Both the position numbers and the translations under genes were made by a program. Shown piece by piece: positions 27,242 to 55,877 of a stretch of 64,000 nucleotides of DNA. The notes under the pieces are model-generated. The model worked only from the letters and a program-made list of their open reading frames with translations. It made no database searches and was not told where the DNA came from. Numbering within the stretch: position 1 is the stretch's first letter; every line of letters starts with the position of its first letter. Source of the DNA: Homoserinimonas sp. OAct 916 (lineage in GTDB: Bacteria > Actinomycetota > Actinomycetes > Actinomycetales > Microbacteriaceae); assembly GCF_003260275.1 (NCBI RefSeq), contig NZ_QJHB01000001.1:186001-250000 (forward strand), read 5' to 3'.

Positions 27242-28306
27242 TCAGTCGACGCTTACGCCGAGCAGAGTGTCCACGACGCGGTCGGCGGCATGCCCGTCAC
27301 CGTAAGGGGTGGCTTCGGTCGCCGGGGGCAATGGTCGATGCACCGCGTCGGCCAAGATCGAGAGATCGTCGGAGACCAATGTGTTCCAGCCGAGCTCGAC
27401 AGTTTCGACCCATTCGGTCTCGGGCCTGATGGTCGTGCACGGCACCCGCAACAGAAATGCTTCCTTCTGCAAGCCACCCGAGTCGGTGATCACACCGCGA
27501 CTCTGCATGACCGTCGCCACCAATTGCGGATAGGCCAGCGGAGCGATCGGCCGGATGCCACCCTGTTCCAGATCGATGCCGTGCTGGGCGGCCAACTGCA
27601 CCAGCCGGGGGTGGGCGGCCAGGAGCACCGGGGCATCCAACGCCGCGAGCCCCTCGATGATCGCGGCGAGGCGCTCCGGCGAATCCGTGTTGTCAGGCCT
27701 GTGCAGGGTGCTCACGTAGTACTCCCCCACATGCACGCCGAGGGGCAGGTCGGGCTCGGTGCCAGCAACGCTGTCGCGCACCCGATGAAGCACATCGGTC
27801 ATCACATCGCCGACCAGAACGCTGCGGTCGACCAAACCCTCGTGGGCGAGGTGGCCCATCGCCACCTCGGTGGGTGCGAGACAGAGATCGGCGGCGTGGT
27901 CGGTGAGTACGCGGTTGTGCTCTTCGGGCATCCGCCGGTTGAAGGAGCGCAGACCCGCCTCCAGATGCGCTACCGGGAAGTGTAGTTTCACCGCCGCGAT
28001 CGCCGCGGCGAGGGTCGAGTTCGTGTCGCCGTACACGAGCACCCAATCGGGTGCAAAACGCTCGAACTCGGCCTCCAGGCCGGCGAGCATCGTCCCGGTC
28101 TGTTGCCCGTGTTTGCCGCTGCCGACCGCGAGGTTCACATCGGGAGCGGGGATGCCCAGGTCACGGAAGAACACGTCACTCATGAGTTCGTCGTAGTGTT
28201 GCCCGGTGTGCACGACGATGTGCTCGGCCCGGCCCGCCATTGCACGCGCAATCGGAGCGAGTTTGACGAATTGGGGGCGGGCGCCGACCACGCTGAGGAT
28301 TCGCAT
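27242..28306 (-). CDS. UDP-GlcNAc 2-epimerase family (WecB/WbpI-like)
   Basis: 354-residue non-hydrolysing epimerase: ILSVVGARPQFVKLAPI (2-18), HTGQHYDELMSD, VYGDTNSTLA, AHLEAGLRSFNRRMPEEHNR with the catalytic acids, and ITDSGGLQKEAF near the C-terminus. By context it fits WbpI, which inverts C2 of UDP-2,3-diacetamido-2,3-dideoxy-glucuronate to the manno form; plain WecB (UDP-GlcNAc/UDP-ManNAc) is the alternative. The frame extends to 28411, but ATG 28306 begins at the family start and has AGAAGG 8 nt upstream. Confidence 0.86.
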   Translation of the reverse strand: MRILSVVGARPQFVKLAPIARAMAGRAEHIVVHTGQHYDELMSDVFFRDLGIPAPDVNLAVGSGKHGQQTGTMLAGLEAEFERFAPDWVLVYGDTNSTLAAAIAAVKLHFPVAHLEAGLRSFNRRMPEEHNRVLTDHAADLCLAPTEVAMGHLAHEGLVDRSVLVGDVMTDVLHRVRDSVAGTEPDLPLGVHVGEYYVSTLHRPDNTDSPERLAAIIEGLAALDAPVLLAAHPRLVQLAAQHGIDLEQGGIRPIAPLAYPQLVATVMQSRGVITDSGGLQKEAFLLRVPCTTIRPETEWVETVELGWNTLVSDDLSILADAVHRPLPPATEATPYGDGHAADRVVDTLLGVSVD

Positions 28307-28412
28307 TGAGGAGACCTTCTTGTCTGGGTTTCGAGCATATGGGCTGTCAACGTAGGGGCTGGGGAGAACTGCGTTGGGAAGATCTGTGCTGGTACGGGTG
28401 ATCGCTGGCACG

Positions 28413-29644: not shown

Positions 29645-32344
29645 TTACCCGCAGCTCTTCAGTGACGCGACGTCTTTCGACAGCGCCCCGGTGCCCCCGA
29701 GGAGCGTCACCCGCAACGCACCAGCAGCCTTGATGTCCGTCAGGATCCCCGCCGGCACACACTTCGGCTGCACCACATACAACGGCGCCTTACTCGCCCC
29801 CGCCAACGCAGCCCCGGCCAACGCATCCGGGAACTGATACCCGGTCGCGAAAAACACCCTGGCCGCCTTCGGGAACGCTTGCTTGTTGATCTTCTGGCTC
29901 GTCTCGAACCGGTCATTGCCGGCGAACCTGGTCGGCGAATACGCCTTCAACCCCGTCTCGATCCCTTTACTGAGCACCCCGGTGCCGCCGGCGATCAGCA
30001 CCTTCGTCACCGCCAACTTCTTCAACAGGGCCGCCGTGCCCGTGTCCAACGACTTCGCCTTACCATTCACCAAAACCACGGGTGCCCCGATCGCCCCGGC
30101 CGCCGCCGACGCCGACAACGCATCCGGATAATCCATCCCCGTCGCCACATACGCCGTGCCGGATGACGGGAATGCGTCACCGATCAACTTGCGAGACGTG
30201 TCGAACCTGTCCGTGCCACCGATTCGTTTCACCGACGCTGCGGGCAGCAGTTTCTTCACGGCATCCATCACCTGGTTCGAGACCGCCCCCGTCCCGCCGA
30301 CCACGACAACCTTCTGCGGCTTCAACCGTTTGATCTCCGCCGCAACCGGCCCCGGCAACGACTTCGGCATCGTCAACAGCAACGGGCCGCCCTTCTTCGT
30401 CGCCGCCGGCGCCGCCGACAACGCATCCGGATAATTGGTGCCCGTCGCCAGGTAGACCACCGGAGCCGTCCCAGCGAACCCCGCCTTGGAGATCTCCACC
30501 GCCGTCACATACCGATCATCACCCGAAATCCGATCCACTTTCGCCGGGCCCATCCCCTTCAAAGTGATGGATACCGTCGCCGTATCCGCGGCCAGATCCA
30601 CCTGTGACGCCGTCACCATGAGGCCGCCTCCCCGACTGGTCAGACTCTTCCCCTCCGCCAGGAAGATGTCCCGCCACCCCTCACCGTCGATGTCTATCGC
30701 CCTGAGCGCCGCCGTCGAATTGTCCCAACGGCGCTTCACGATCCGCACGCCAACGCCGAGCCCATCGATGGCTCCGAGTTCTTGAGCCCATTCGATGTTG
30801 GGCTGGGTATAGAGCGCGTCCTTATCGACGCCGCTCCCGGAACGGAACTCAACGTAGTAGGTCTCCAGGTTTTTCGGATCCTTGACCTTCAACGCCCGCA
30901 GTCCGCTCGTCACGGTAGCCGCGTTGATCGTATAGGTCTTCGTCGACGCGGCCACTCCGGCCTCCTGTGCAACCGGCTCGAGCTCCCCCGTGTTGTACAG
31001 CCCGAGCCTCTCGCGGTCGGGAGCGTTCAGCGCGGTCAGGGTGTTGTTGCTCGTGGGCACCCCGTTGTAGGTCAGCACCATGCCCCCCGACATGAAGTCG
31101 AAATAGTCTGCATAGGTGACGTCCGTGCAGTCGTCTGAAAAGGTGTACGTCGCTGCCGTGTACTTGCCTTCGACGACTGCGGCATCGGGACAGTGGTGCG
31201 CGTTGGAGTGATCGAGACTTGTGTTGTGACCGAACTCATGCCCTATGGTTTGCAGGTCAGTGTCCGCGCCGAGCCCGGCCCAGATTACCCCGCCCGAGTG
31301 GAGACCTGCACTCAGTGTTCCCAGACCGTTTCCGCCGCCGCACTGGTTCGGGCTGAGCACCACGAGATGCTCTGCACCTGTGCCCCTCTCATAGTCGAAC
31401 TGGGCTCGCCCGAACTTGGCCGCGGCCTCAGTCCAGAGCGTGAAAGCATCGCAGCCGCCTTGGGCAATCGTCTTCGACGAGCTGTAGTTCTTGAAGGAGC
31501 GGACAGTGATAGTCGGCAGGCCACCTCGTGACTCAATCTTCCAGAAAGCACTCATCTTGGCGACGAGCCCACTGACCTGCGCCTTACTGATGAACGTGCT
31601 GGTTCCTGAGTCTTTTGGCGCCACGACGGCGATGTCGAGAATATGCGCCTTACTGGGCTGCACCGCATACGTCGCCGTTCGGATCTCTGCCGCTGCGATC
31701 TCCAACGGAAGATCCTGCTCGACGACCGCCTCGACGACCTGCGTTCCTGCTTCACTGTCCAGGCGCACCGGATCGTCTGCCGAACCCTCGACGAGTGCAG
31801 CCTGTCCCGAGTCCACAGCATCGACGACCGCCTTGGGCAACGCGAGCGTGCCGGCGAATTCACTCCCCGACCGAACCGAGGTGGGAACATCTCCGACAAC
31901 GTCAAACCTCTCACCCGATTCTGTGACCAGAAGATACTTCCGGCCGCCGTCGACAGGGTCGGATGCTGCGCCGCCACCGTCACTCGAAACGATTCGCGGC
32001 CCTGCATCCACGATGTAGACCATGAGGGTGCCCTCGACCATCAGTTTGGGCTCCGCTTCGAGACTCGCGTCGTCGATCTCGACGTTCTCCGACTGGTCGG
32101 ATGCTCCGGATGAGGGGTCATCCGCAGCCCCGGTCTCACCGACGTTGTCGAACAGTGGGGCGGAATCCGTGACGAGCGTGGATTCCGGGACGGCGTCGCT
32201 GGCAACAGCAGCGCCAGTGTCGTCCTCCGCCATTGCGGCGGGCAGGGCAATTGTGCTCATCACGAGCGCCAGCATCGCCGCCCCGGAAACAATCAGGTGC
32301 CGTGATCGTGGGTCGGGAAATGGGCGAAATCCATCCTTGGGCAT
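29645..32344 (-). CDS. Secreted metalloprotease with cell-wall-binding repeats (1)
   Basis: 899-residue exported protein. A signal peptide (about 1-38, ending ALPAAMA) precedes an acidic linker and a propeptide-like region. The zinc protease domain (about 210-540) carries HEFGHNTSLDHSNAHHC at about 368, an HExxHxxxxxH site as in gametolysin/metzincin enzymes, with FDFMSGGM as a possible Met-turn. Three cell-wall-binding 2 repeats end the protein (about 590-899: RISGDDRYVTAVEISK, RIGGTDRFDTSRKLI, RFAGNDRFETSQKIN, each followed by YPDALS or FPDALA). GAGGAG lies 7 nt before ATG 32344. A paralogue is at 39172-41847. Likely a wall-attached protease; its substrate is unknown. Confidence 0.87.
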   Translation of the reverse strand: MPKDGFRPFPDPRSRHLIVSGAAMLALVMSTIALPAAMAEDDTGAAVASDAVPESTLVTDSAPLFDNVGETGAADDPSSGASDQSENVEIDDASLEAEPKLMVEGTLMVYIVDAGPRIVSSDGGGAASDPVDGGRKYLLVTESGERFDVVGDVPTSVRSGSEFAGTLALPKAVVDAVDSGQAALVEGSADDPVRLDSEAGTQVVEAVVEQDLPLEIAAAEIRTATYAVQPSKAHILDIAVVAPKDSGTSTFISKAQVSGLVAKMSAFWKIESRGGLPTITVRSFKNYSSSKTIAQGGCDAFTLWTEAAAKFGRAQFDYERGTGAEHLVVLSPNQCGGGNGLGTLSAGLHSGGVIWAGLGADTDLQTIGHEFGHNTSLDHSNAHHCPDAAVVEGKYTAATYTFSDDCTDVTYADYFDFMSGGMVLTYNGVPTSNNTLTALNAPDRERLGLYNTGELEPVAQEAGVAASTKTYTINAATVTSGLRALKVKDPKNLETYYVEFRSGSGVDKDALYTQPNIEWAQELGAIDGLGVGVRIVKRRWDNSTAALRAIDIDGEGWRDIFLAEGKSLTSRGGGLMVTASQVDLAADTATVSITLKGMGPAKVDRISGDDRYVTAVEISKAGFAGTAPVVYLATGTNYPDALSAAPAATKKGGPLLLTMPKSLPGPVAAEIKRLKPQKVVVVGGTGAVSNQVMDAVKKLLPAASVKRIGGTDRFDTSRKLIGDAFPSSGTAYVATGMDYPDALSASAAAGAIGAPVVLVNGKAKSLDTGTAALLKKLAVTKVLIAGGTGVLSKGIETGLKAYSPTRFAGNDRFETSQKINKQAFPKAARVFFATGYQFPDALAGAALAGASKAPLYVVQPKCVPAGILTDIKAAGALRVTLLGGTGALSKDVASLKSCG

Positions 32345-32654
32345 GGTGACTCCTCGGGTATCACTGCAGTGCCACTGAAGAAAACGGTTGCCCATTCTTA
32401 GCGGATTATTGTGAAACACCGCGACCCCCCGTTCGTGGGGCAGACAATCGAGAGGCTTCATGCAGTATCACGCGGTTCCTTCAGTCAATTGCCGGGGTTC
32501 AGCCATCCACCTCGGGTACCCTGAACTGATCACATGACGCCGCCACCGTTCCCGGTGGGCACACCCCATGGCATGAGGGCCACCCCACACAGATGAGAAC
32601 CAGACCCATGACGCGAGCGGATGCCGCCCCAGGCGCCGCCCGGCAGGCTGCGCG
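32345..32654. other. Intergenic region between the divergent protease and DUF6541 genes
   Basis: 310 bp with no credible gene. It must hold the promoters of both flanking genes. I see no convincing -35/-10 pair. A short inverted repeat CCCCC-GTTCGT-GGGGC-type stem lies near 32428-32443. A frame opening at ATG 32609 runs through the DUF6541 start and is a shadow. Confidence 0.5.
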
Positions 32655-34655
32655 GTGAGCTGGCTCGACGTCGTTCCGACCTTCCTCATCGCGCTCACTC
32701 TCGTGGTTCTGCCCGGGGTACCGGTGGCCTGGGCGCTCGGGGCCCGAGGGGTCACTTTCGTCGGGATCAGCATCGGTGGCTCGGTCACCGCCACGGCGGT
32801 TGCGGCCATCATCGCCCCCTGGCTGAATCTGCCGTGGCAGGCCTGGCTGCCGTTCCTCGTATCACTCCCGGTGGCCGCAACCGGGTTCGGGTTGCGCCGA
32901 TGGTGGCGCAGACGATTCGTGCCCCCTGAGCCGGCGCTCGTTCGCGACCGCTGGCCGCTGCTGGTCACAGCGCTCGGGGCCGTCGCCATCCCCGCGGTGC
33001 TGATCGGGGGCGTGCTGGTGCGCTGGATGGTCTTGCCCGAACACCCGACCCAGACCTACGACGGAGTGTTCCACCTGAACGCCGTGCGCCTGATACTCGA
33101 CACGGGCAACGCCTCATCGCTGACGCTCGGCCTCACGTCGGCGGAGGGCAGCTTCTACCCGGCCGCGTGGCACGGCATCACCGCCCTCGTCGTGCAGTTG
33201 ACCGGTGTGCCGATCGTGGTCGCCGCGAACGTGATGACTTTCGTCATCTCCTGTGTGATCTGGCCCGGCGCGAGCATCTTCGTGGCCCGCCAACTATTCG
33301 GTGCGCAGAAGTTGCCGATCCTCATCACCGGGATTCTCGCCGCAGCCTTCGTGTCGTTCCCGCTCTACCTCTCCGCCTACGGTGTGCTCTATCCCTACCT
33401 GCTGGCGGTGGCACTCGCTCCGATCCTGCTCGGCCTGCTGGTGTCGGCACTCGGCATGGCCCGGGGTGTCGGCATGGAGACTCCGGGGCGCTGGCTGGCG
33501 CTCGCCTGGGTGGTGCCCGGAGCGACTCTGGCGCACCCCTCTATCCTGTTCGCACTGATCGCACTGTCTCTGCCACTGTCGGTACAGGCACTGGTGCGTC
33601 ATCTCGGCAGGGTTCGCGCCGAGGGACGGATGCGCACTGTCGGCATCGCCACGATCTTCGGCTTCACCGCCGCGTATGCCGGAGGCGCCCTGATCTGGTT
33701 GAACACGGCAACCTCAGACAACTCGTGGCTGCCCCACCTCACGGTGATCAAGGCCGCCGGGGAGGCGGTGCTGAACGTGCCCCTGGTACGGCCCGCGGCT
33801 TTCGCGGTGAGCGCGCTCATGCTGCTCGGCATCGTTGTCGCGCTCGTTGTGGAGCGCCACCGCTGGATGGTGTTCTCCTGGCTGATCCTGGTCTTTCTCT
33901 ACGTGATGGTCGCCGCCTGGCCACCCGGTGTCCTCCGCAACGCCTTCACCGGGATCTGGTACAACAACACCCAACGACTGGCCGGGCTGATCCCGATCAT
34001 GGCCCTGCCGCTGGCCGTGCTCGGAACGACTGCGCTCATCCGATGGGCGCAACGGCGCGTCCGAACCGCGCGCACACCTGGCCTGGATCGCGAGGTCGCG
34101 GGCCGCCCATTGCGCGCCTGGGCCGCCGTCGCGATCACCGCCCTGGCCGCCGGCATCCTGATCCCCGCCACACAGACCGGCGCTGTTCCCGCGGTGGAAC
34201 ACAAGATGGCCGCGCAGTACCGGTTCTCTGAGAAGTCGCACGTGCTCAGCCCTGACGAGGTGGCCATCTTCGAGATCGTCGCCCGCGAGACGCCACCCGA
34301 TGCGGTGATCGCCGGCAACCCGTGGAACGGCAGCGCCCTGGTCTACGCCTACACCGGTCGCCCCGCCCTCTTCCCCCACCTCAGCGGCGAATGGAGCGAC
34401 GAGCAGTGGTTGCTGGCGGAAGGCTTGACGTCGGCGACCGCCGAGGTCTGCGAGGCCGTCCACAGTTACGGGATCACCCACGTGCTCGACTTCGGGGGCA
34501 GGAAGCTGTTCAAGAACGACCCACGCGCCGAGAAGTTTCCGGGCTTCAGTTCGTTGAAGAAGTCGGATGCGGTCACCCTGGTCGCCGAGCAGGGCAAGGC
34601 GAAACTGTACCGGGTGACCGCGTGCGGCCTGGGCACATCGGGGAGTGACGAATGA
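32655..34655 (+). CDS. DUF6541 polytopic membrane protein (1), GT-C-like
   Basis: 666 residues with about 13-14 membrane segments and a C-terminal extracytoplasmic domain of about 150 residues. QTYDGVFHLNAV in the first outer loop has an Asp and a His at the place where GT-C glycosyltransferases keep catalytic acids. FYPAAWHG, VVQLTGVPIVVAANV and VLYPYLLA follow, and the outer domain has PPDAVIAGNPWNGSAL and FPHLSGEW. This fits DUF6541, suspected to be a polyprenyl-phosphate-sugar-dependent transferase. GTG 32655 is used because the same MSW start and helix open the paralogue. Its stop overlaps the paralogue's start by 4 nt. Confidence 0.75.
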   Translation: MSWLDVVPTFLIALTLVVLPGVPVAWALGARGVTFVGISIGGSVTATAVAAIIAPWLNLPWQAWLPFLVSLPVAATGFGLRRWWRRRFVPPEPALVRDRWPLLVTALGAVAIPAVLIGGVLVRWMVLPEHPTQTYDGVFHLNAVRLILDTGNASSLTLGLTSAEGSFYPAAWHGITALVVQLTGVPIVVAANVMTFVISCVIWPGASIFVARQLFGAQKLPILITGILAAAFVSFPLYLSAYGVLYPYLLAVALAPILLGLLVSALGMARGVGMETPGRWLALAWVVPGATLAHPSILFALIALSLPLSVQALVRHLGRVRAEGRMRTVGIATIFGFTAAYAGGALIWLNTATSDNSWLPHLTVIKAAGEAVLNVPLVRPAAFAVSALMLLGIVVALVVERHRWMVFSWLILVFLYVMVAAWPPGVLRNAFTGIWYNNTQRLAGLIPIMALPLAVLGTTALIRWAQRRVRTARTPGLDREVAGRPLRAWAAVAITALAAGILIPATQTGAVPAVEHKMAAQYRFSEKSHVLSPDEVAIFEIVARETPPDAVIAGNPWNGSALVYAYTGRPALFPHLSGEWSDEQWLLAEGLTSATAEVCEAVHSYGITHVLDFGGRKLFKNDPRAEKFPGFSSLKKSDAVTLVAEQGKAKLYRVTACGLGTSGSDE

Positions 34656-36658
34656 GTTGGTTCGCGGCGGTCCCCGCATTTCTCACCGCCGTGACGCTGG
34701 TCGTCCTTCCCGGTGTGCCGATCGCGTGGGCTGTGGGGGCACGTGGGATCTCGTTCGTCGCGCTGAGCATCGCCGCTTCGGTCTCTTCGTCTGTCGTGGC
34801 CGGAGTGATCGGGCCACTGGTCGGATTCTCCTGGCAGGTGGCCGCACCGTTCACCGTTTCGATTCCGGTGGCCGTGGTCGGGTTCGGGCTGCGCCGCTTT
34901 TGGCTGCGCGCCTACCCGGCAGATGACCGGGCAACCCGGCGCACCGATTGGGGCCCGCTGTTCCTGGTCGCGCTGGTCGCCGCCGGAATCGGCGCTGTGC
35001 TCATCGCCATTCCGCTGAAGGCCGGCATCGGCATGCCCGACTGGCCTTCTCAGACATACGACGCCATCTTCCACCTGAACGCGGTACAGCAGGTTCTGAA
35101 CACCGGCAACGCGTCCACTCTCGCGCTGAATCTCAGCACACCCGCGTCAGCCGTGGCCTTCTATCCCGCCGCGTGGCATGGCTTGACCGCTCTCGTGGTG
35201 CAGCTCACGGGCGCCCCGATCGTCGTTGCCGCCAACACGATGTCGTTTGTCATCGCGTGTGTGATCTGGCCGGTGTCCAGCGTGTATCTGGCCCGGCAAC
35301 TGTTCGGGCCGAGCCGACTCGCCCTGCTGATCACCGGGGTGTTGGCTGCCGCGTTTGCCGCGTTTCCGTTGCTGCTGGTGCAGTACGGCGTCCTCTACCC
35401 CTATCTGCTGGCGATTGCTCTCTCCCCGATCGCGATCGGGCTTCTGCTGTCTGCACTCGGCAAGGCGAACGCCCCCGACCTCGAGCCTCCCGCCCGCTGG
35501 ATCCTGTTCACCTGGACGTTGATCGGAATCGGAGCTGCGCACCCCGAAGCCATCTTCGGATTGATGGTGATCGCCGCGCCTCTCGTCGTGCAGGCCGTGG
35601 TGGAGTATCTGCGTCGGCTGCACGCCCAGGATCGTCTGGCGCTACGAGGCACGGTCGCGGTTGCCCTCACCCTTCTGGTGACGGCGGCCTGCATCTACGC
35701 GTGGCGCACCAACGGCACCACCGACAGCCGCTGGAAGCCGAACCAGACCATCGCGCAGGCGATCGGCGAGGCGATCATGAACGGGACGGTCGAGCGGCCG
35801 GCCTCCTTCGTTGTGAGCGCCCTGATGGTCATCGGCATGTTTGTCGCGTTGAGGACCCGCCGCCACCTGTGGCTCGTGTTCGCGTGGGCGCTGATCACGT
35901 TCCTCTACGTCGTGGCATCGGCGGGGCCACTCGGTGAGACCCGCACCGCTCTCGTGGGTCTCTGGTTCAACGACATGAGGCGCTTCGCAGCACTGCTCCC
36001 GCTGATAGCGCTCCCGTTGGCCGCGCTCGGCGGTCTCACCGTGATTCGTTGGCTCCAAGGCGCGTTGGAGAACGCTGGCCCCCGGTTCGTGTCGCTCACC
36101 CAGCCACGAAACCGCAGCATCGCGGCCACCACCATCGCCGCGCTGGTGCTGGTGCTGTTGGTCCCCTCCACTCAGGATGCACCCATTCGTGCTGCGGTGA
36201 AGGAGCTCAAGGTCAAGTACACGCTCAGCGACGAATCGGTGGTGGTCTCCCCCGATGAGATAGCCGTCTTCGCCGATGCGGCCCGGTTGACCCCGCCAGA
36301 CGCGGTGATCGCCGGCAACCCGTGGAACGGAAGCGGGCTGGCCTACGCCTACGCCAACCGAAAGGTCTTGTTCCCCCATGTCTCCGGAACCTGGAGTGCC
36401 GAACGTTGGGAGATCGCCGACGACTTGAACACGGTGACCCCCGTCACACCGTCGCAGGCACCCATCTGCCAGGCACTTCGTGACGAGGGCGTCGGCTACG
36501 TTCTAGACTTTGGCACGAGGATGCTGCATCCGCATGATGAACGCACGACCCTGTATCCGGGTTTCGACGACATCGCCGCGTCGGATGCCGTCACCCTCGT
36601 AGCCCGCCACGGTGACGCCGCGCTCTATCAGATCACCGCCTGCGGTCTGAAGCCGTAA
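34652..36658 (+). CDS. DUF6541 polytopic membrane protein (2), tandem paralogue
   Basis: 668 residues, collinear with the preceding protein and clearly a tandem duplicate: MSWFAAVPAFLTAVTLVVLPG at the start, QTYDAIFHLNAV, FYPAAWHGLTALVVQLTG, VLYPYLLA and PPDAVIAGNPWNGSGL at equivalent places. The middle and the loops have diverged strongly, so the copies probably differ in donor or acceptor. ATG 34652 overlaps the previous stop (ATGA), which implies equimolar production and perhaps a heteromeric complex. A dehydrogenase gene follows after 47 nt. Confidence 0.75.
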   Translation: MSWFAAVPAFLTAVTLVVLPGVPIAWAVGARGISFVALSIAASVSSSVVAGVIGPLVGFSWQVAAPFTVSIPVAVVGFGLRRFWLRAYPADDRATRRTDWGPLFLVALVAAGIGAVLIAIPLKAGIGMPDWPSQTYDAIFHLNAVQQVLNTGNASTLALNLSTPASAVAFYPAAWHGLTALVVQLTGAPIVVAANTMSFVIACVIWPVSSVYLARQLFGPSRLALLITGVLAAAFAAFPLLLVQYGVLYPYLLAIALSPIAIGLLLSALGKANAPDLEPPARWILFTWTLIGIGAAHPEAIFGLMVIAAPLVVQAVVEYLRRLHAQDRLALRGTVAVALTLLVTAACIYAWRTNGTTDSRWKPNQTIAQAIGEAIMNGTVERPASFVVSALMVIGMFVALRTRRHLWLVFAWALITFLYVVASAGPLGETRTALVGLWFNDMRRFAALLPLIALPLAALGGLTVIRWLQGALENAGPRFVSLTQPRNRSIAATTIAALVLVLLVPSTQDAPIRAAVKELKVKYTLSDESVVVSPDEIAVFADAARLTPPDAVIAGNPWNGSGLAYAYANRKVLFPHVSGTWSAERWEIADDLNTVTPVTPSQAPICQALRDEGVGYVLDFGTRMLHPHDERTTLYPGFDDIAASDAVTLVARHGDAALYQITACGLKP

Positions 36659-36705
36659 GAACATTCCGCCAATCGCCCACGACAATCCGCAAAGGTCGCA
36701 CCCCC

Positions 36706-38001
36706 ATGAAGATCGCCGTCATCGCCCTCGGGAAGATCGGCCTGCCGCTGGCCGTGCAGTTCGCAGACAAAGGACATGAGGTCGTCGGCGTCGATGTGAA
36801 CCAGCACACGGTCGACCAGGTGAATGCCGGCACGGAGCCGTTCCCCGGCGAGGCCCACCTGCAGGAGAAGCTGTCGGCCCTGGTGCCGGCCGGGCGGCTG
36901 CGGGCAACCACCGACTACGCGGATGCCATTCCCGGAGCCGATGCGGTGGTGCTGGTGGTGCCGCTGTTCGTCGACCAGGAGGCTCAACCCGACTTCGGCT
37001 GGATGGATGCCGCCACACGGTCGCTGGCCGAACACCTGACCGCCGACACTCTCGTCGCCTACGAGACGACCCTGCCGGTCGGCACCACGCGCACACGATG
37101 GAAGCCTCTGATCGAGGAGGTCTCCGGCCTGGCCGAGGGGAAGGATTTCCATCTGGTCTTCTCACCCGAGCGTGTGCTGACCGGACGCGTTTTCGAAGAT
37201 CTGCGCAAGTACCCGAAACTTGTCGGCGGCCTGTCAGAAGCCGGTGCCGCCCGGGCGGTGGAGTTCTACAACGCAGTTCTCGACTTCGACGATCGGCCCG
37301 ACCTGGCTCGCGGAAACGGGGTGTGGGATCTCGGCTCGGCGGAGGCATCCGAACTCGCCAAACTCGCCGAGACCACCTACCGGGATGTGAACATCGGACT
37401 CGCGAACCAGTTCGCCCGCTATGCGGCCAGCGCTGGAATCGACATCTACCAGGTGATCGAGGCCTCCAACTCGCAGCCCTACAGCCACATCCACCAGCCG
37501 GGAATCGCGGTCGGCGGGCATTGCATTCCGGTCTACCCCAGGCTGTACCTGTGGAACGACCCGGCCGCGACCGTGGTGCGGGCTGCCCGCGAGGCGAACG
37601 CGGGTATGCCCGACTACACGGTCGGCCTGCTCGAGGGAGCCCACGGCACCCTCGACGGGCAGAGGGTGGTCGTGCTCGGCGCCGCATACCGGGGCGGGGT
37701 GAAGGAAACGGCCTTCTCCGGGGTGTTCCAGGCGGTCACCGCCCTCGAATCCCGCGGCGCGATCGTCAGCGTGCACGATCCGCTCTACTCAGATGACGAA
37801 CTGGGCCGGCTCGGGTTCACCCCCTACCATCTGGGCGAACCGGTCGACGCTGCGGTGGTGCAGGCCGACCACGTCGAGTACCGCCGCCTCACATCGGCCG
37901 ACCTGCCGGGCATCCGCACTCTCGTCGACGGCCGCAGGGTGACCGACCCCGCGGCCTGGCCCGGCGTCACCCACCGGGTCATCGGCCGGTCATATTCGTG
38001 A
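36706..38001 (+). CDS. UDP-sugar 6-dehydrogenase (WbpA/WecC-like)
   Basis: 431-residue NAD-dependent dehydrogenase. The Rossmann start reads MKIAVIALGKIGLPLAVQFA; the nucleophile is Cys273 in AVGGHCIPVYP, with ELAKLAETTYRDVNI (Lys219) as the central signature and AYRGGVKETAFS in the C-terminal domain. The VPVYP-type segment after the cysteine suits UDP-N-acetyl-hexosamine dehydrogenases better than UDP-glucose dehydrogenase. It would make UDP-GlcNAcA, the input for the WbpB-like enzyme 13 kb upstream. AAAGG lies about 10 nt before the ATG. The stop overlaps the next GTG by 4 nt. Confidence 0.86.
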   Translation: MKIAVIALGKIGLPLAVQFADKGHEVVGVDVNQHTVDQVNAGTEPFPGEAHLQEKLSALVPAGRLRATTDYADAIPGADAVVLVVPLFVDQEAQPDFGWMDAATRSLAEHLTADTLVAYETTLPVGTTRTRWKPLIEEVSGLAEGKDFHLVFSPERVLTGRVFEDLRKYPKLVGGLSEAGAARAVEFYNAVLDFDDRPDLARGNGVWDLGSAEASELAKLAETTYRDVNIGLANQFARYAASAGIDIYQVIEASNSQPYSHIHQPGIAVGGHCIPVYPRLYLWNDPAATVVRAAREANAGMPDYTVGLLEGAHGTLDGQRVVVLGAAYRGGVKETAFSGVFQAVTALESRGAIVSVHDPLYSDDELGRLGFTPYHLGEPVDAAVVQADHVEYRRLTSADLPGIRTLVDGRRVTDPAAWPGVTHRVIGRSYS

Positions 38002-39146
38002 GAATCGCGCTCACCGAGAGCAGGTTGGTCCTTCCGCCGACCTACTTCACCCTGAGCCACGCGGAGCGGCTCAAGGCCGAGCACGAGTTCAGCATGTTCA
38101 CCATGATCGCCCGCATCGACGACCCTCGTGTGAGCGTGCCGGTGCAGCAATCGGTGCCGCACGAGCGCTGGCCGTTCAGCCGCATGTCCTTTCGTCAGCG
38201 GGAGCTGCTCATGCCCGCATTCATGCCGCGGCTCACCCGGCAGATCGTGCGGTACACGCCCGACGTGATCCACCTGCATTTCGCGACGTGGTCTCTGGCC
38301 GCGGTCAAAGCCGCGCGATCAAGCGGCACCCCGCTGATCACCACCGTGCACGGCGCCGATGTGGCGGCGGCCCTCCGCACCCCCCACACCGCAATGGAGC
38401 GATGGCACCAGCGCAATGTGGCCGCTGCCCGAACGGCAAGCACCCGCGTCTTGGCGGTGAGCGAGTACCTCGCCGGCCGTGCGGTGCGCGCCGGATTCGA
38501 CCCGTCTCGGCTCGAGGTACATTATTTGGGGGTGGATGCCGACTACTTCACCCCAGCCGCGCCCGGGGCAGAAGCACACAGTTGCGCAGATTCTGAACTG
38601 CCGCTGGTCTTGTTCGTCGGCGCCCTGAGCGTGCTGAAAGGGGCGCGCGACCTGGTGCGGGCATCCGTCGGCCTCGTCGACACGGTGCCCCATCGGCTGG
38701 TTCTGGTCGGGGAGGGGCCTCTTGAGAAAGAACTGCGGTCGAGCACGGAAGATCAACCACACGTGTCGTTCACCGGTTCGATCGACCGCGAGGCGGTGCG
38801 CGAGTTGATGCGCACAGCGACGGTCTTCGTGCTGCCGACCCAGGAGACCCGCGGCCAACGGGAGTCGGCCGGGCTCGTTCTTCTTGAGGCGCAGGCCTGC
38901 GGAACCCCGGTCGTCGCCTATGACAGTGGGGGCACCACGGAGATGTTCCGCAAAGACGTGACCGGTGTTGCTGTTCCGGAGAAAGACACTGCCGCGCTGC
39001 AGTTTGCCATCGGCCAGGTTCTGGCCATGCCGACAACGGAATACATCGCGATGCGAACGGCCGCGCGCGAATTCGTGCTGACGGAACGCAGCCTTGCGCT
39101 CAGCTGCACCCAACTGGTCGACCACTACCGCGACGTGCTGGGCTGA
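37998..39146 (+). CDS. GT4 glycosyltransferase
   Basis: 382-residue GT-B enzyme: DVIHLHFATWSLAAVKAA and TTVHGADVAAALR in the N-terminal domain; PLVLFVGALSVLKGARDLVRA, RLVLVGEGPLEKELR and ESAGLVLLEAQACGTPVVAYDSGG in the C-terminal domain, with the E-x7-E-type nucleotide-sugar site. It starts with GTG 37998 inside the dehydrogenase stop (GTGA), so it is translated with it and may use a UDP-uronic acid derived from that enzyme's product. Convergent with the second protease gene 25 bp away. Confidence 0.87.
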   Translation: MRIALTESRLVLPPTYFTLSHAERLKAEHEFSMFTMIARIDDPRVSVPVQQSVPHERWPFSRMSFRQRELLMPAFMPRLTRQIVRYTPDVIHLHFATWSLAAVKAARSSGTPLITTVHGADVAAALRTPHTAMERWHQRNVAAARTASTRVLAVSEYLAGRAVRAGFDPSRLEVHYLGVDADYFTPAAPGAEAHSCADSELPLVLFVGALSVLKGARDLVRASVGLVDTVPHRLVLVGEGPLEKELRSSTEDQPHVSFTGSIDREAVRELMRTATVFVLPTQETRGQRESAGLVLLEAQACGTPVVAYDSGGTTEMFRKDVTGVAVPEKDTAALQFAIGQVLAMPTTEYIAMRTAAREFVLTERSLALSCTQLVDHYRDVLG

Positions 39147-39171
39147 AGCCCGAAGACAGCACGACCGAAGA

Positions 39172-41847
39172 TCAGCAGCGACCCAGCTTCGCCACCGTTC
39201 CGGAAAGCGCCCCGGTGCCTCCCAGCAGGGTGACCTTTTTCGACCCTGAGGAGTGGATGTCCTTCAGGATTCCGTCCGGCACGCACTTCGGCATGACCAC
39301 GTAGAGCGGCGCCTTGGTCTTGCCGGCCAGTGCCGCCCCGGCAAGCGCGTCGGGGAACTGCATCCCCGTGGCCAGGAACGTGCGCTCCGCCTTCGGGAAG
39401 GCGTGCTTGTTGATCTTCTGGCTGGTGTCGAAACGATCCGTTCCGGCGAACCGCGTCACCGTGTAACTCGTGAGCGACGCCTCGAAGGTCGAGTTGACCG
39501 CGCCGGTGCCGCCCGCGATGAAGACACTCTTCGGCTTCACCTTCTTCAGCAGCGCCGCCGTCGCGGAGTCGAGCTTCTTGCCCGTGCGCCCGTCAACGAG
39601 GATGACCGGGGCCTTCTTCGCCCCACCGGCCGCCGATGCCGACAAGGCGTCCGGATAGTTGAACCCGGTCGCCAGATAGGCAGCAGACGCCGACGGGAAT
39701 GCTTCACTGCTCACCTTGCGCGACGTGTCGAACCGGTCTTTGCCGGCGATCCGCTTCACCGTGGCCAATTTCTTCAACTCGTTCTCGACGGCCTTCGAAA
39801 CAGCGCCTGTACCGCCGACCACGACGATCTGCGATGGTTTCAGGCGCTTGATCTCCGCTTTCACCACGGCGGGAAGCGTCTTGGTCATCGTCAGGAGCAG
39901 TGGCGCACCCTTTGCTGCGGCAGCCGGGGCCGCCGAAAGTGCATCCGGGTAGTCCTGGCCGGTCGCTACGTAGACGACTTTGGCGGTCGTGAAGCCGTAC
40001 TTGGAGATATTCGCGGCGGTGGCATAGCGGTCGTCGCCCTGGATCCGGTCGATCGAGGTGACGCTGCTGCCAAAACCCTTCAGCGTGATCTCGACGGTGG
40101 CCTTGCCGCTCGCAATGGAGGCGACCTTGACGTTCACTCCACCACCCCGCCCGGAGAGGCTCTCCCCCGCGATCATGGCGATCGCGCGGGGTTCGTCGGC
40201 AGCAGGCTCCGGGGCTCTCAGCACCGCGCTGGTGCCGTCGATCGCCTTCGAAGTAGCGTCTTCGTCGACGTCGGTGCGTACTTTCAAGACTCGCACTCCG
40301 GTGCCGAGCCAGCTGGCGTAAGGCCGAGGCATCCACAGTGGTTCATCGATGGTGTAGAAGGCATTCTTGTCCAGCCCTGTGCCACCGCGGTATTCGACGT
40401 AGTACTTCTCACCGGTCTTCGGGTCGGTGATGCGGATGCCGCGCAGACCCTCGGTCGCCGAGGCCGGTTCCAGTGTGACCTTCACCTTCCCAACAGCGCC
40501 GGTCTTGGGGAGGGTGACCGACTTGAGTTCGCCTGCGCGGTAGAAGCCCAGGCGGGCCTTGTGGGTCGCGTTCAACGCGTTCGCCGTGTCGGCGTCGTTG
40601 ACACCGCTGAAACCCATGACGTCATAGAGATCCATGTAGCTGTAGTCGTCACAGTCGCTGGAGAACGTGTTCGTCTTCGAGTTGTACGCCCCATCGACGA
40701 CCTTGCCCCCCACACAGTTGTGCACATTTGAGTGGTTCAGGCTGAGATTGTGCCCGAACTCGTGGGTAGTCAACTCGTTGTTCGCACCGCCCTGAGCGGC
40801 AACCCAGAGCACGCCGCCGCTGGTCGACTCGGACCCGATTGAGGCCAGCCCGGAGAAGTCGACCACGTCCTCGCAATAGGTGGGGCTGAACACCGCAAGG
40901 TGCCGTGAGCTGGTCTGCGCCAAGTAGTACTCGGGAGTGTTGTACTTGCCGAACTTCTTCAGCGCCTCGTTCCAGAGGAAGCCATCTGGACTGCACCCGC
41001 CAGAATACGTGCCGCGTTCAGACGTGTAGGTCTTGACCGTGCCGACGGCGATGCTCGAAATGCTTCCGTTCGACTGCCCGTTCCAGTAGGTGCTGAGCTT
41101 GCCGAACAGCGTCTTCGCCCCAGCTGCGGTGAGAATCTGCCCTGTGGCCTCGCCAGCGGGAGTGACGATAGCCACGTCGACAGTGTGTTTCTTAACGGCA
41201 TTTGCAGCAGCAACCCCGGCTTCGAATCTGGCCGAGGCCAGCGGAAATTCCGACTCCAGACCAGACGACGCCTCGAACACGGCAGCGCTTGTCTCCGAGT
41301 CGAGAACGACCGACTTCTGGGCGGATTGGCCAACCGCGTCCTGCTGCTCCGTCGAAAGCTCCCCAAGAACCGCAGCAGGGACGGTGACAGTTCCGGTCAC
41401 GTGGCTGCCGGTCTGTATAACAGGGTCGATGTCGCCGGTGACCCGCACGGTTTCACCGGTCGTGGTGAACACCAGATACAGAAAGTCGGAATCTGGTTGC
41501 TCGCCCGGCTGGCCAAAAGTCGCCGGGTCGAACCGCGGGGCTTCGACGGGAATCACAGCGAAGGTGCCATCGATGCGCAACAGGGCCTCCCCTTCACCGA
41601 CTGTGGATTCGAGTTCGATCACAGCCGGCTGCTCCGACTGCTCGCCCTCGTCAGCAGGATCGGCGTCCTCTACTTCAAGACTCACATCGGAGTCGATTCC
41701 CGCCTCGACCGATTCGGCGAGTTCTGGACCTTCCGCGAATGCGGCGGGCGCCGAGACCGCGCCCGCCAGCACCGCGAAGATCGCGGCGGCCGACACAGAC
41801 AGTCTTCGAAAACGGCAGACGGAGTCAGTGCGATCGGTCAGAGCCAT
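39172..41847 (-). CDS. Secreted metalloprotease with cell-wall-binding repeats (2)
   Basis: 891-residue paralogue of the protease at 29645-32344, with the same order: signal peptide (ends APAAFA, about 38), acidic linker, propeptide-like region, zinc site HEFGHNLSLNHSNVHNC at about 360, possible Met-turn LYDVMGFSG, and three cell-wall-binding 2 repeats (RIQGDDRYATAANISK, RIAGKDRFDTSRKVS, RFAGTDRFDTSQKIN). GAGGAA lies before ATG 41847. The two proteases differ mostly in the N-terminal 200 residues and around the active site, so substrates may differ. Sequence identity in the repeats makes this pair a possible recombination site. Confidence 0.87.
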   Translation of the reverse strand: MALTDRTDSVCRFRRLSVSAAAIFAVLAGAVSAPAAFAEGPELAESVEAGIDSDVSLEVEDADPADEGEQSEQPAVIELESTVGEGEALLRIDGTFAVIPVEAPRFDPATFGQPGEQPDSDFLYLVFTTTGETVRVTGDIDPVIQTGSHVTGTVTVPAAVLGELSTEQQDAVGQSAQKSVVLDSETSAAVFEASSGLESEFPLASARFEAGVAAANAVKKHTVDVAIVTPAGEATGQILTAAGAKTLFGKLSTYWNGQSNGSISSIAVGTVKTYTSERGTYSGGCSPDGFLWNEALKKFGKYNTPEYYLAQTSSRHLAVFSPTYCEDVVDFSGLASIGSESTSGGVLWVAAQGGANNELTTHEFGHNLSLNHSNVHNCVGGKVVDGAYNSKTNTFSSDCDDYSYMDLYDVMGFSGVNDADTANALNATHKARLGFYRAGELKSVTLPKTGAVGKVKVTLEPASATEGLRGIRITDPKTGEKYYVEYRGGTGLDKNAFYTIDEPLWMPRPYASWLGTGVRVLKVRTDVDEDATSKAIDGTSAVLRAPEPAADEPRAIAMIAGESLSGRGGGVNVKVASIASGKATVEITLKGFGSSVTSIDRIQGDDRYATAANISKYGFTTAKVVYVATGQDYPDALSAAPAAAAKGAPLLLTMTKTLPAVVKAEIKRLKPSQIVVVGGTGAVSKAVENELKKLATVKRIAGKDRFDTSRKVSSEAFPSASAAYLATGFNYPDALSASAAGGAKKAPVILVDGRTGKKLDSATAALLKKVKPKSVFIAGGTGAVNSTFEASLTSYTVTRFAGTDRFDTSQKINKHAFPKAERTFLATGMQFPDALAGAALAGKTKAPLYVVMPKCVPDGILKDIHSSGSKKVTLLGGTGALSGTVAKLGRC

Positions 41848-42029
41848 TCTGGGGATTCCTCTACATTGAGCAACGGCACTGCCGCGGTGTGTGAAGTTAA
41901 GTGAACCTCAATTATTAGCAGGAAGCCCCGACAGAGTACAGTTCACCCTCCCACCCAAAAGGCGGGCCATCTGCCCCTGAGCACCCAGTTGGAGTTCACC
42001 CGGAGGCGGCGGTGCATTCCGTTGGAACG

Positions 42030-44405
42030 TCAGCAGGTGTTGAGCCGGCTGACGTCTGCCGTGAGTACACCCGGGCCTCCGAGCAGTGAAACGCGTGTCG
42101 CGCTCGACACGGTGATGTCGAAGAGAACCTGGGGAGCCAGGCAGTTCTTGGCCACGACGTACACGGGGGCGTTCTGCGCCCCGGCCAGGGCCGCTCCGGT
42201 GAGGGCATCGGGGAACTGGCTTGCCGAGGCCACGTAGGCGCGTGCGGTCGTCGGGAACGCGGCCTTGTTGATCAGCCGGCTCGTTTCGTACCTGTCGGCG
42301 CCGGCCCGACGAGCGGGATTGAACGCTTTCAGTGAAGTCTGGATGCCCGAAGTCACCACTCCGGTGCCCCCGGCGATGATCGTGCGGGTCACCCCAAGCT
42401 TTGTGAGCAACGCCTTGGTGGGCGCATCAATGGCATTCTTGCGGCCGTCCACGAGCATCACCGGCGCCTTGATCGCACCCGCTGCGGCCGATGCCGAAAG
42501 CGCATCTGGGAAGTCCATCCCCGTCGCCAGATAGGCGGTCTCGGCCGACGGGAAGGCGTTGGAGATGACCTTGCGGGCAGTGTCGAACCGGTCGGTCCCG
42601 CCCAGTCGCTTCGTTGGTGCGATCGTTTTGAGCACGTCCATCACCGAGTTGGAAACCGCAGAGGTTCCACCCACGACGACAATACTCTTGGGCTGGAGGC
42701 GTTTGATCTCGTTCTTGACCACGTCGGGCAGGCGGTTGGGGATGGTCAGAAGCAGAGGACCGCCCTGCTTGGCGGCCGCCGGGGCTGCGGCCAGGGCGTC
42801 CGGATAGTCGTTCCCCGTGGTCACGTAGACCACGTTGGCGGTCTTCGGGTAGCCGGACTTGGAGATCGCCACTGCGGTCCAGTAGCGGTCATCGCCGGAG
42901 ATCCGGTCGGTCTTGAGGGCAGCACGCATGACCACCTTCGGTTGCGTGGTCGACGACCAGCTGATGGTGCCCTTCTCGAACTCGGATCGAATCTGCCCGC
43001 CCGCGGCGGTGATCGGTTCAGCCAGCGGAAAGCCGAGCTTGCCGCCCGGTCCCCCAGCATCGGCATAGGCAGACAGCGCGACTTTCGGTACGCTGACCGC
43101 GCCGGTCGCACTTGACCAGAAGATTGCGCCGCTCTCGAAGACCTGACTGTACCCGCCCGGTTCCGGTTGCATGCCCGCCGCGGGATAGCCGAGCGTGCCG
43201 CCCGCACCGCCCAGAGCCGCATAGAGCGAGTAGATCCCGCCGGAGGAGTGTTGGGTGCCTCGTGCTGAACTCCAGAAGATCGCACCATTCTGGAACTTCT
43301 GGCTGTAGCCGCCCTTGCCGTCATTCACCATGTCACCGACCGGGTAGCCGAGCGTGCCGGTGGGGCCACCGAGCCCGATGTAGCTATGGCCGATCGCACC
43401 GGAGGTTCGGTAGGCGCCGGTCTTCTGGTGCCAGTAGGCCCAACCGCGCTGGAACTCCTGCCCGATGCCGCCGTTGGAGTACTTGACGGGCACGTTTGTC
43501 GCGTAGCCGAGCAACCCGGTGGAACCGCCGGTGGAATCCCAGAGTGCCTTCAGCTTGGCATCGGCCGCGTACCCCTGCGTCGAGCCGAACCAGTCGACGA
43601 AGTAGTTGAAGAAGTTGCGGTTGCCATAGGCCGAGCATCCGTTGCCCAACCCATAGCCGGCGTTCAGCGCCGCGGCATTCGGCGTGTACGGGGTATAGGT
43701 GTAGAGGCTGCTGGTGGCCTCGTTCTGGATCCTGACCGCCTTGGTGCCGCAGGAGGCATCAGGGTGGTAGCGCACGTTCACGGTCTTGCCGGGAGCGTAC
43801 TGGCGGAAGGTGGAGTACCATTCCGTGCCGGGGCCGGTACCTTTCGGCATGGTGTAGCGCTGGAAGGCCCACGTGCCGGTGTAGACCTGGTTGAAGAATC
43901 CGTAGTAGTTGATGTCGCAGTCGGCGGTGTCGGGGCATCCGTAGCCCATCGCCGAGCGGTACATGCGGGCGCTCGGCCAATCATCGGTGATGAATCCCTG
44001 CTCCTTCTGGAGCGTGACCAGGATGACCTGGGGGTTCACGTTGCAGGCCTTGGCCACTTTGTAGATGATGGTGGCCGCCGACTCGTTCTTGGCGCCGGTG
44101 TAGCCGGCGCACATCGGGTCTTTCGGCCGGTTCGGTGTGTCCTGCTTGTAATCGATGAGGCAGGTGTATCCGGTGCGACAGGTCGAGACCTTCGACTTCA
44201 AGAACGCCTGGATCTGTGCGACGGTCATGGTGCTCGGATTGAAGAACACGGTGTCGCTGATGATGTTGCCCGGATCGAACTTCGAGAGGTCGGCAGCTTC
44301 AGCAGAGGGCGGCGTGGTGACGGTGGCTTCGACAGCGACCAGACCGGCAGCCAGCATGCCGACGGCGGCGACGGCAGCCAGAAATCGGCGCATACCTCGA
44401 CGCAT
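42030..44405 (-). CDS. Secreted LGFP-repeat protein with cell-wall-binding repeats
   Basis: 791 residues. A signal peptide (about 1-37, ending SAEAA) precedes a Cys-rich N-terminal domain (about 38-260) with VNPQVILVTLQKEQGFITD, which looks like a lysozyme/transglycosylase-type helix with a Glu. About five LGFP repeats (roughly 275-500; GGSTGLLGYATN, GGPTGTLGYPVG, GGAGGTLGYPAAG, GGPGGKLGFPLAE) may bind wall arabinogalactan or teichoic acid. Three cell-wall-binding 2 repeats end it, as in the two proteases. A strong GGAGGTGAAC site is 2-7 nt before ATG 44405. Possibly a wall-remodelling hydrolase; catalysis is unproven. Confidence 0.85.
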   Translation of the reverse strand: MRRGMRRFLAAVAAVGMLAAGLVAVEATVTTPPSAEAADLSKFDPGNIISDTVFFNPSTMTVAQIQAFLKSKVSTCRTGYTCLIDYKQDTPNRPKDPMCAGYTGAKNESAATIIYKVAKACNVNPQVILVTLQKEQGFITDDWPSARMYRSAMGYGCPDTADCDINYYGFFNQVYTGTWAFQRYTMPKGTGPGTEWYSTFRQYAPGKTVNVRYHPDASCGTKAVRIQNEATSSLYTYTPYTPNAAALNAGYGLGNGCSAYGNRNFFNYFVDWFGSTQGYAADAKLKALWDSTGGSTGLLGYATNVPVKYSNGGIGQEFQRGWAYWHQKTGAYRTSGAIGHSYIGLGGPTGTLGYPVGDMVNDGKGGYSQKFQNGAIFWSSARGTQHSSGGIYSLYAALGGAGGTLGYPAAGMQPEPGGYSQVFESGAIFWSSATGAVSVPKVALSAYADAGGPGGKLGFPLAEPITAAGGQIRSEFEKGTISWSSTTQPKVVMRAALKTDRISGDDRYWTAVAISKSGYPKTANVVYVTTGNDYPDALAAAPAAAKQGGPLLLTIPNRLPDVVKNEIKRLQPKSIVVVGGTSAVSNSVMDVLKTIAPTKRLGGTDRFDTARKVISNAFPSAETAYLATGMDFPDALSASAAAGAIKAPVMLVDGRKNAIDAPTKALLTKLGVTRTIIAGGTGVVTSGIQTSLKAFNPARRAGADRYETSRLINKAAFPTTARAYVASASQFPDALTGAALAGAQNAPVYVVAKNCLAPQVLFDITVSSATRVSLLGGPGVLTADVSRLNTC

Positions 44406-44665: not shown

Positions 44666-45634
44666 TCAGCCTGCGAAAACGTGGGCCGACCAGGCCGAGC
44701 GGATGATCTCGGGCAGGTCGTATTTCGACGTCCAGCCGAGTTCGTCGGCTATCAGTTTCACGTCGGCAATGAGTTGGGCCGGGTCGCCGGGTCGCCGGTC
44801 GACGACGATCGGCGTGAGTTCCTTTTCGCTGGCCACACCGATCTCACGGATGACGTCGGCCACGCTGGCGCCGCTCCCCGTGCCCACGTTGAAGATCGAA
44901 TGCGGCCGATCGTCACGGTCGAGATAGTCGAGGGCCGCAATGTGCGCCTCGGCAAGGTCGAGCACGTGCACGTAGTCACGGATGCAGGTGCCGTCGGGCG
45001 TGGGATAGTCGTCGCCGAAGATCAGTGGTTCGGCCCCGGCATCCATCTTCTCGAACACCATCGTTACAAGGTTGAGGGCTGCCGGGTCGCCCAGATCGTC
45101 CCAGCCCGCGCCGGCCACGTTGAAGTAGCGCAGGTTGGCACCGCGCAATCCCCACGCGGTGGCGGCGTCTGCCACCAGCCATTCGCCAACAAGTTTGGTC
45201 TCTCCGTACGGGTTGATCGGTTGCGGCAATTGTCTCTCATCTACCTGCTCCAGCGCAGGGATTCCGTACACGGCCGCCGACGAGGAGACCACCATGCGAT
45301 CGACGCCGGTCTCCTCCATCGCCTCGAGCAAGTTGGCCAGGCCGCCCACGTTCTGCTGAAAGTACCGGGCCGGCTTCGACACCGACTCGCCGACCTGTTT
45401 CTTGGCGGCAAAGTTGATCACTGCCGTGACCTCGTGTTCGCGCATCACCGCAGCGAGCGGTTTGCGCGACGAATCCGCGGCGATATCCAACTGAACCAGC
45501 GGTGCATCCCCGATTCGGGACGCGTCACCGGTGGTGAGGTCGTCGACGACCACCACGTTCCGACCCTGTTGCGCCAGAAGTCGAACAACGTGCGCACCGA
45601 TGTACCCGGCACCGCCGGCAACCAAAACTGTCAT
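44666..45634 (-). CDS. galE: UDP-glucose 4-epimerase
   Basis: 322-residue extended SDR. GGAGYIGAHVV (7-17) binds NAD, VSSSAAVYG holds the catalytic Ser, and the YGETK motif the Tyr and Lys; LRYFNVAGA and RDYVHVLDLAEAH complete the GalE pattern. It makes UDP-galactose (or UDP-GalNAc) for the glycosyltransferases of the region. Minus-strand TACTCT (45646-45641) ends 6 nt before the ATG, so the transcript is probably leaderless. Divergent from the following SDR gene. Confidence 0.92.
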   Translation of the reverse strand: MTVLVAGGAGYIGAHVVRLLAQQGRNVVVVDDLTTGDASRIGDAPLVQLDIAADSSRKPLAAVMREHEVTAVINFAAKKQVGESVSKPARYFQQNVGGLANLLEAMEETGVDRMVVSSSAAVYGIPALEQVDERQLPQPINPYGETKLVGEWLVADAATAWGLRGANLRYFNVAGAGWDDLGDPAALNLVTMVFEKMDAGAEPLIFGDDYPTPDGTCIRDYVHVLDLAEAHIAALDYLDRDDRPHSIFNVGTGSGASVADVIREIGVASEKELTPIVVDRRPGDPAQLIADVKLIADELGWTSKYDLPEIIRSAWSAHVFAG

Positions 45635-49084: not shown

Positions 49085-49132
49085 TACAGCCCGTTCTCGA
49101 GAGTCATTCGGCAACCATCGCGCTCGTGGAAG

Positions 49133-51000: not shown

Positions 51001-51105
51001 GAACCAACATTTTACGGGATGAGCCTGAGCGTTGGGTCTTGGGCACGGTCACGGTCGGCTTGGTTGCCGGGTCATCGCAATTCAGGGGTATCGCATATCG
51101 GTTGT

Positions 51106-51198
51106 TACAATCACAGGGTGCCGACGGGCAGCAGTGCCCCAGAGACTCTCACGATCTGCCCGCGATCTCAGAATAGGAACCTTCATTTCTTTGGATAG
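51106..51198 (+). other. Leaderless promoter and possible leader ORF before the CDP-alditol gene
   Basis: TACAAT (51106-51111) ends 6 nt before GTG 51118. That codon opens a 26-codon frame (MPTGSSAPETLTICPRS and onward) ending at TAG 51196-51198, which overlaps the TTG 51191 start of the following gene. Either the frame is a leader peptide coupled to the gene, or the gene simply has a leader of about 75 nt. A -10 box at this place is well supported; translation of the leader is not. Confidence 0.4.
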
Positions 51199-54558: not shown

Positions 54559-54608
54559 GTGCCGATGTTCTCGGGGATGCTCTCCCGCATTCGCTACTTA
54601 CGCAAAGC

Positions 54609-55871: not shown

Positions 55872-55877
55872 GTCCGG

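Follow-up and report, generated by a model that had tools for sequence, protein, structure and literature searches.

Why genes for wall-anchored secreted proteins should lie inside a locus for a wall polymer is a question raised by a stretch of 64,000 nucleotides from Homoserinimonas sp. OAct 916, a member of the Microbacteriaceae (NCBI RefSeq GCF_003260275.1, contig NZ_QJHB01000001.1, positions 186,001 to 250,000; this whole stretch is the window, and positions below are counted from its first letter). From its sequence, the region appears to be a wall-glycopolymer biosynthesis locus that contains secreted-protein genes, three of which, between 29645 and 44405, encode proteins sharing a C-terminal triplet of cell-wall-binding 2 (CWB2) repeats. 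An initial annotation had proposed that the genes nearby make the very polymer that this anchor recognises, and that anchor and ligand would therefore be inherited together. Here, we find that the unit tied to polymer loci is not the trio but one of its members, a protein with an N-terminal domain that we call LYS.

All three proteins start with what look, by eye, like signal peptides and end in three CW_binding_2 stretches (PF04122; E 5.3e-55, 1.3e-55 and 1.6e-51, with scores of 173-186 bits against a cut-off of 24.9), in agreement with the initial annotation, whose description of two paralogous HExxHxxxxxH metalloproteases also held. These are MP1 (29645..32461, minus strand, with a likelier start at 32344), a secreted metzincin-like metalloprotease by prediction, and its paralogue MP2 (39172..41847, minus strand); their protease parts are 38% identical, their zinc motifs read HEFGHNTSLDH (31208..31240, minus strand) and HEFGHNLSLNH (40732..40764, minus strand), respectively, and their CWB2 triplets occupy 29669..30532 (contig C51:215669-216532) and 39193..40047, both on the minus strand. 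The third protein, of 791 residues (42030..44405, minus strand), joins the LYS domain (43590..44294) to a region with four LGFP stretches, a repeat type named in the earlier description (Pfam; 42906..43580, limits set by the adjoining domains), and a CWB2 triplet (42051..42905).

The LYS domain, which makes up 235 residues of this protein, is present in 324 of 349 Microbacteriaceae genomes. Beyond the family it thins out: in a sample of the order it occurs in 51 of 198 genomes, 14 of them from the same family, and in a sample of the phylum seven of 246 genomes match, two from the same family and five with weak matches that cover the domain in part. It was not found in phage records, and when plasmids were searched with the full-length protein, the nine records obtained all matched the CWB2 or LGFP parts alone.

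As a marker of polymer loci like that in the window we used the nucleotide-sugar dehydrogenase encoded between MP1 and MP2 (36706..38001, plus strand; TIGR03026, 299.6 bits, cut-off 189.8), close relatives of which (E ≤ 1e-100) are present in 62 of the 349 genomes. LYS occurs in 58 of the 61 dehydrogenase genomes searched, and the LYS gene nearest to the dehydrogenase lies within 50 kb in 47 of the 58, within 20 kb in 35 and within 10 kb in 13, compared with 2.6 genomes expected at 50 kb under uniform placement in genomes of 3 Mb. For genera that lack the dehydrogenase, we collected LYS-centred regions from 20 genera, 19 of them long enough for analysis. According to profiles whose sole sources were the window and the loci with the dehydrogenase, 17 of the 19 contain glycosyltransferase or DUF6541 genes (two or more in 16), as against four of 27 protease-centred regions without LYS (two or more in two) and one of the seven regions (L002-L008) that house eight of the nine CWB2 proteins encoded elsewhere in the Homoserinimonas genome, where profiles and a wider query set each picked up a single glycan gene. 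With that wider set the counts became 19 of 19 LYS-centred regions, or 14 of 14 once five regions that had supplied queries were dropped, and six of 27 controls; both sets of counts exclude L087, L009 and regions shorter than 15 kb (L061, L064, L079, L083-L085 and L151), and in L009 single-sequence queries detected no glycan gene. The neighbours of LYS include RgpF/WbsX and GlfT2/Emb-type genes.

The LYS domain matches no Pfam or NCBIfam family and no sequence in the PDB. The model (predicted local distance difference test (pLDDT) score of 90) aligns in VIA, which re-aligns Foldseek rows only, to LytB with Z 9.3 (root mean square deviation (rmsd) 3.1, 138 aligned residues), followed by AtlE (7.9), SagB (6.8), MltF (6.2) and goose lysozyme (6.0). 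Glu98, which lies in the motif TLQKEQGF (43992-44015), and several cysteines are invariant in 19 of 19 LYS sequences. We thus predict a lysozyme-type fold with a candidate catalytic glutamate; the 'transglycosylase-like' label of the initial annotation is backed by the predicted fold alone. Such an enzyme might work on the glycopolymer itself, trimming or releasing it, instead of on peptidoglycan. Linkage to polymer loci and the lack of a sequence match to known peptidoglycan hydrolases would agree with this, but a single conserved LYS domain accompanies very different predicted polymer genes, for which a common substrate such as peptidoglycan would be a better fit, and we consider a role on the polymer very unlikely.

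The LYS head is conserved, but the anchor at the C terminus differs from lineage to lineage by exchange, being a CWB2 triplet, LGFP or other repeats. Among the 19 proteins of the LYS-centred regions, one has CWB2 by profile, and the others carry LGFP and several other repeat types when inspected by eye. In genomes with both the dehydrogenase and CWB2, the fusion of LYS to CWB2 is common (25 of 28 examined; 24 in frame by coordinates and our own by its open reading frame (ORF)), the linker measuring 30-42 bases in 17 of the 25, and in G243 and G198 this fusion is the sole CWB2 protein.

We therefore regard as the best reading, and as a reasonably probable one, that LYS is an autolysin-like protein of polymer loci tethered by interchangeable anchors. 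As a secreted, predicted glycan-cleaving enzyme of the lysozyme superfamily and a regular member of polymer loci, it would be kept after secretion on the wall polymer, or on the wall, by its anchor, and this tethering could limit cleavage to the sites that display the polymer, by analogy with the relation of wall teichoic acid (WTA) to some autolysins. The activity of LYS, the nature of the polymer, the ligand of the anchor and the spatial targeting are all what we infer.

Several observations weigh against this reading. No Pfam hydrolase profile was found for any of the 19 LYS members (E ≤ 1), nor any in NCBIfam (E ≤ 0.1); Foldseek gave no match to LYS at E ≤ 0.001 (best E 0.66) and returned a mixed list, led by lysozyme-type enzymes and including unrelated folds, of which three rows alone reach Z 8 in VIA. 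The distance from the dehydrogenase to LYS exceeds 50 kb, or the two are on separate contigs, in 11 of the 58 genomes, the latter being the case in nine. Single-sequence queries derived from the window (≥40 bits) hit ten of 20 LYS-centred against eight of 40 protease-centred regions, with means of 0.55 against 0.53, a small contrast that became clear with the profiles; one of these queries, labelled GT4, is the oxidoreductase at 22106, and the GT4 labels in this count, in counts at about 10 kb and in the survey of genes around proteases are partly that enzyme. Relatedness among the genomes, and the origin of some control regions from one and the same genome (four come from G211), make the P values optimistic, and conserved gene order could by itself hold LYS near polymer genes. 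Finally, Pfam scans of 35 window ORFs contained no LytR-CpsA-Psr gene.

The anchor itself has a much broader use than the locus. In the Homoserinimonas genome, 13 proteins carry a total of 39 CWB2 repeats. Four of these proteins are encoded at the locus, including one whose C-terminal part (63596..64000, minus strand) continues past the right end of the window into L001, and nine elsewhere, among them a CAP-domain protein; with nine of the 13 away from the locus, the CWB2 triplet serves this cell as an anchor of general use. The triplets of the trio form no supported clade: in a smaller tree that of MP2 pairs with that of the CAP-domain protein (L007) at 96/94, and a larger tree leaves this pairing unresolved and places other proteins of the same genome nearest to each trio member. 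On these results we reject a private anchor set of the trio, and it is on the nine proteins elsewhere and the missing clade that we base the view that the trio is not the unit. In the same genome, two adjacent CWB2 proteins (L006:8549-11809), with 92% identity between their triplets, are the product of a recent tandem duplication. The strict P[ILV][ILV][ILV] (PILL) motif is found in five of the nine trio repeats; the LYS protein has PVML in its repeat 2, and all three third repeats read P[LV]YV, in a comparison that left out the L001 protein and incomplete triplets.

Across the family, the idea that the trio's anchors specifically recognise the polymer of the adjacent locus draws support from the distribution of CWB2: 97 of the 349 genomes have it, and its share is higher among those that have the dehydrogenase (29 of 62) than among the rest (68 of 287; Fisher P = 5e-4, not corrected for the relatedness of the genomes). 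The 68 genomes with CWB2 alone and the 33 with the dehydrogenase alone count against that idea and rule out strict co-occurrence. In the 28 examined genomes with both, 51 of 165 CWB2 genes lie within 50 kb of the dehydrogenase, compared with 5.4 expected under uniform placement, a figure that, like those that follow, ignores relatedness. After removal of LYS-adjacent genes 25 of 136 remain near it (4.4 expected), and once G000 and G309 are also taken out the count is 13 of 103 (3.2 expected), in seven of 22 genomes. Much of the linkage is thus the LYS-CWB2 fusion, and a smaller linkage beyond LYS remains. The radius of about 10 kb, at which seven of 60 dehydrogenase regions contain CWB2, underestimates the linkage at 50 kb, and G290, with the dehydrogenase and two CWB2 repeats, is outside both the 28-genome set and the 61-genome LYS search. 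Two CWB2-rich regions stand out: of the roughly 22 CWB2 proteins of G309, a genome of 2.4 Mb, ten lie no more than 50 kb from the dehydrogenase (contig C1:98-147 kb, with an array at 131-147 kb), and in G121, which has no dehydrogenase orthologue, a run of CWB2 genes surrounds a protease and a LYS gene (L066).

If anchor and polymer were inherited together, repeat sequence should covary with the glycan genes, a check that the initial annotation had itself proposed. On a tree of 50 triplets, we compared the number of label changes with 300 shuffles. Genome labels change 29 times (shuffled mean 36.5; none of the 300 as low), a grouping by genome that would fit recognition of the local polymer, whereas glycan-locus labels change nine times (mean 12.3; six of 300 as low) and are confounded with genome. 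The nearest neighbour of a triplet comes from the same genome in 20 of 32 cases and has the same head in ten of 32. Protease tails resemble other tails of the same genome in Homoserinimonas and G121; those of G341, G280 and G060, against co-inheritance, are nearest to protease tails from other genomes. Repeats thus cluster by genome and follow the glycan locus inconsistently, which neither proves nor excludes ligand matching, and we set aside the claim that their sequence tracks the locus. Of the original proposal, the enrichment of CWB2 near the dehydrogenase and the precedent of Clostridioides difficile described below speak for it, whereas the genome-wide use of the anchor, a linkage much of which is the LYS fusion and repeats that do not track the locus consistently speak against it; the proposal has partial support, and overall we consider it unlikely.

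The two metalloproteases follow a different distribution from LYS. Metzincins are defined by the HExxHxxxxxH zinc motif and a Met-turn methionine, and the His, Glu, His and His of the motif as well as a following Met are invariant in 32 protease sequences. The predicted fold, built on an alignment led by MP2 with MP1 included, is that of a metzincin, aligning in VIA to Bacillus immune inhibitor A2 (InhA2) with Z 17.5 (rmsd 4.3, 318 aligned residues) and to ulilysin and adamalysin-type enzymes with Z of about 11. MP1 and MP2 resemble InhA2 in this predicted fold and differ from it by their CWB2 anchor and by matching no Pfam peptidase, M6 included, CW_binding_2 being their sole match at E ≤ 0.001. 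Relatives of the protease domain occur in 56 of the 349 genomes and gave 40 protease-centred regions, some genomes contributing more than one; 33 of the regions were long enough (L087 dropped). Six of the 33 also hold a LYS gene, and in the other 27 the wide query set finds no glycan gene in 21 and the profiles none in 23, so that this part of the trio did not stay with glycan genes in most relatives, a finding that the initial annotation had named as contrary to its proposal. Proteases beside glycan genes were seen in G189, G014, G290 and G207, and the short region L085 likewise has LYS next to a protease. We propose that the two proteases are accessory CWB2 users placed at the locus and mostly found elsewhere in relatives.

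The genes around the trio indicate which polymer may be made here. Between MP1 and MP2, all on the plus strand, lie two DUF6541 membrane proteins (32655..34655, E 2.6e-163, and 34652..36658, E 2.1e-170; PF20176), the dehydrogenase and a GT4 glycosyltransferase (37998..39146); the dehydrogenase named in the initial annotation was thus confirmed, and its 'membrane transferase' remains a guess, DUF6541 having no assigned function in Pfam. DUF6541, tandem here at 32655-36658, is also seen in the LYS-centred regions L149 and L152. On the minus strand are a WbuX-type N-acetyl sugar amidotransferase (25949..27115; TIGR03573, 276.8 bits, cut-off 203.2), a WecB-type UDP-GlcNAc 2-epimerase (27242..28411) and a GalE-type epimerase (44666..45634), and on the plus strand a DegT/DnrJ-type sugar aminotransferase (21090..22466) and a GFO/IDH/MocA oxidoreductase (22106..23452, its listed start too far upstream) whose best NCBIfam match, below cut-off, is UDP-GlcNAc 3-dehydrogenase. 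The latter two functions recur as an amino-sugar module, found together in 18 of 60 dehydrogenase regions (L088-L147). Further right follow a GT2 glycosyltransferase with a TarS-type linker (47240..49114, minus strand), two LicD-like proteins, each with a methyltransferase match (49372..51000 and 52705..54558, minus strand), an IspD/TarI-like cytidylyltransferase fused to a short-chain dehydrogenase (51032..52645, plus strand) and a GT2 protein with a TagF/TarL-like glycerophosphotransferase-type part (56471..59131, minus strand). Read against the Wbp/Wlb and teichoic-acid pathways, this gene set suggests an anionic polymer that would contain an amino-uronic acid and alditol phosphate. Third-position GC is 0.56-0.69 in the ORFs of 52705-61707, below most other window ORFs, which suggests that the TagF-like part of the locus may have been acquired later. 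An ORF inside the glycan locus (24943-25887) has a weak, below-cut-off match to the restriction-endonuclease-like family PF18741. Of two contig scans for relatives, the first confirmed none, and the second yielded five loci, of which a single Leifsonia genome supplied two.

LytD of Bacillus subtilis, a glucosaminidase, offers a parallel from outside the Actinomycetota. Its gene is described in one study as kept in all 108 strains inside an otherwise swapped WTA cassette (PMC8753576); LYS is likewise a conserved wall-enzyme gene by prediction in a polymer cassette, and it differs in lacking a Pfam hydrolase profile and in its exchangeable C-terminal repeats. The recombination of such cassettes noted in the same study, together with the CWB2 arrays of G309 near the dehydrogenase and of G121 without it, would fit a locus that is an exchangeable surface-gene island in which secreted-protein genes gather or persist with no functional tie to the polymer, but LYS is near-universal and lies beside differing kinds of polymer genes, and we find such a neutral neighbourhood improbable. 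The tethered-enzyme reading has a second parallel in Listeria LygA, a LYZ2-GW peptidoglycan hydrolase retained by WTA (PMC10335673), in which repeats that recognise one of the wall's polymers keep a hydrolase in place; LYS differs in its catalytic and anchor families, and its role here is predicted.

For the anchor, the closest comparison is C. difficile, to whose Cwp8, Cwp6 and SlpA structures the CWB2 proteins match in sequence. There, according to PMC4973711, the S-layer/cwp genes are followed directly downstream by the anionic polymer (AP) locus, the likely locus of the polymer PSII, and CWB2 proteins bind PSII, a precedent for recognition of a neighbouring polymer. For anchoring in that species the PILL motif is required. 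Three tandem CWB2 repeats are common to both systems, as is the position of several CWB2 genes next to a probable locus for an anionic polymer; here the host is an actinobacterium, the sugar genes are others, the third repeats of the trio carry P[LV]YV in place of PILL, and the recurrent locus member is the LYS protein. On this comparison, the arrangement is best described as an actinobacterial variant of the known pattern of polymer locus and anchored protein, distinguished by a domain without a name that looks catalytic and by anchors that can be exchanged. A genome paper gives teichoic acid as what seems to be the usual choice of Microbacteriaceae, with polyrhamnose perhaps in some (PMC6106888), and among the literature matches listed we found nothing on LYS or on CWB2 in this family. 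A more far-reaching possibility, which we hold to be rather doubtful, is that LYS is a dedicated, near-universal partner of glycopolymer display in this family, required in every case where such a polymer is deposited, with anchors that evolve after the polymer or wall feature of each lineage, so that tail type would record the co-evolution of anchor and ligand.

LYS is an unnamed, near-core domain family that marks wall-polysaccharide loci in a large actinobacterial family and for which a role in wall-polymer display is predicted. The exchange of anchors on one head provides a way to study the co-evolution of anchors and wall polymers, and extends the question of CWB2 and PSII beyond the Firmicutes.

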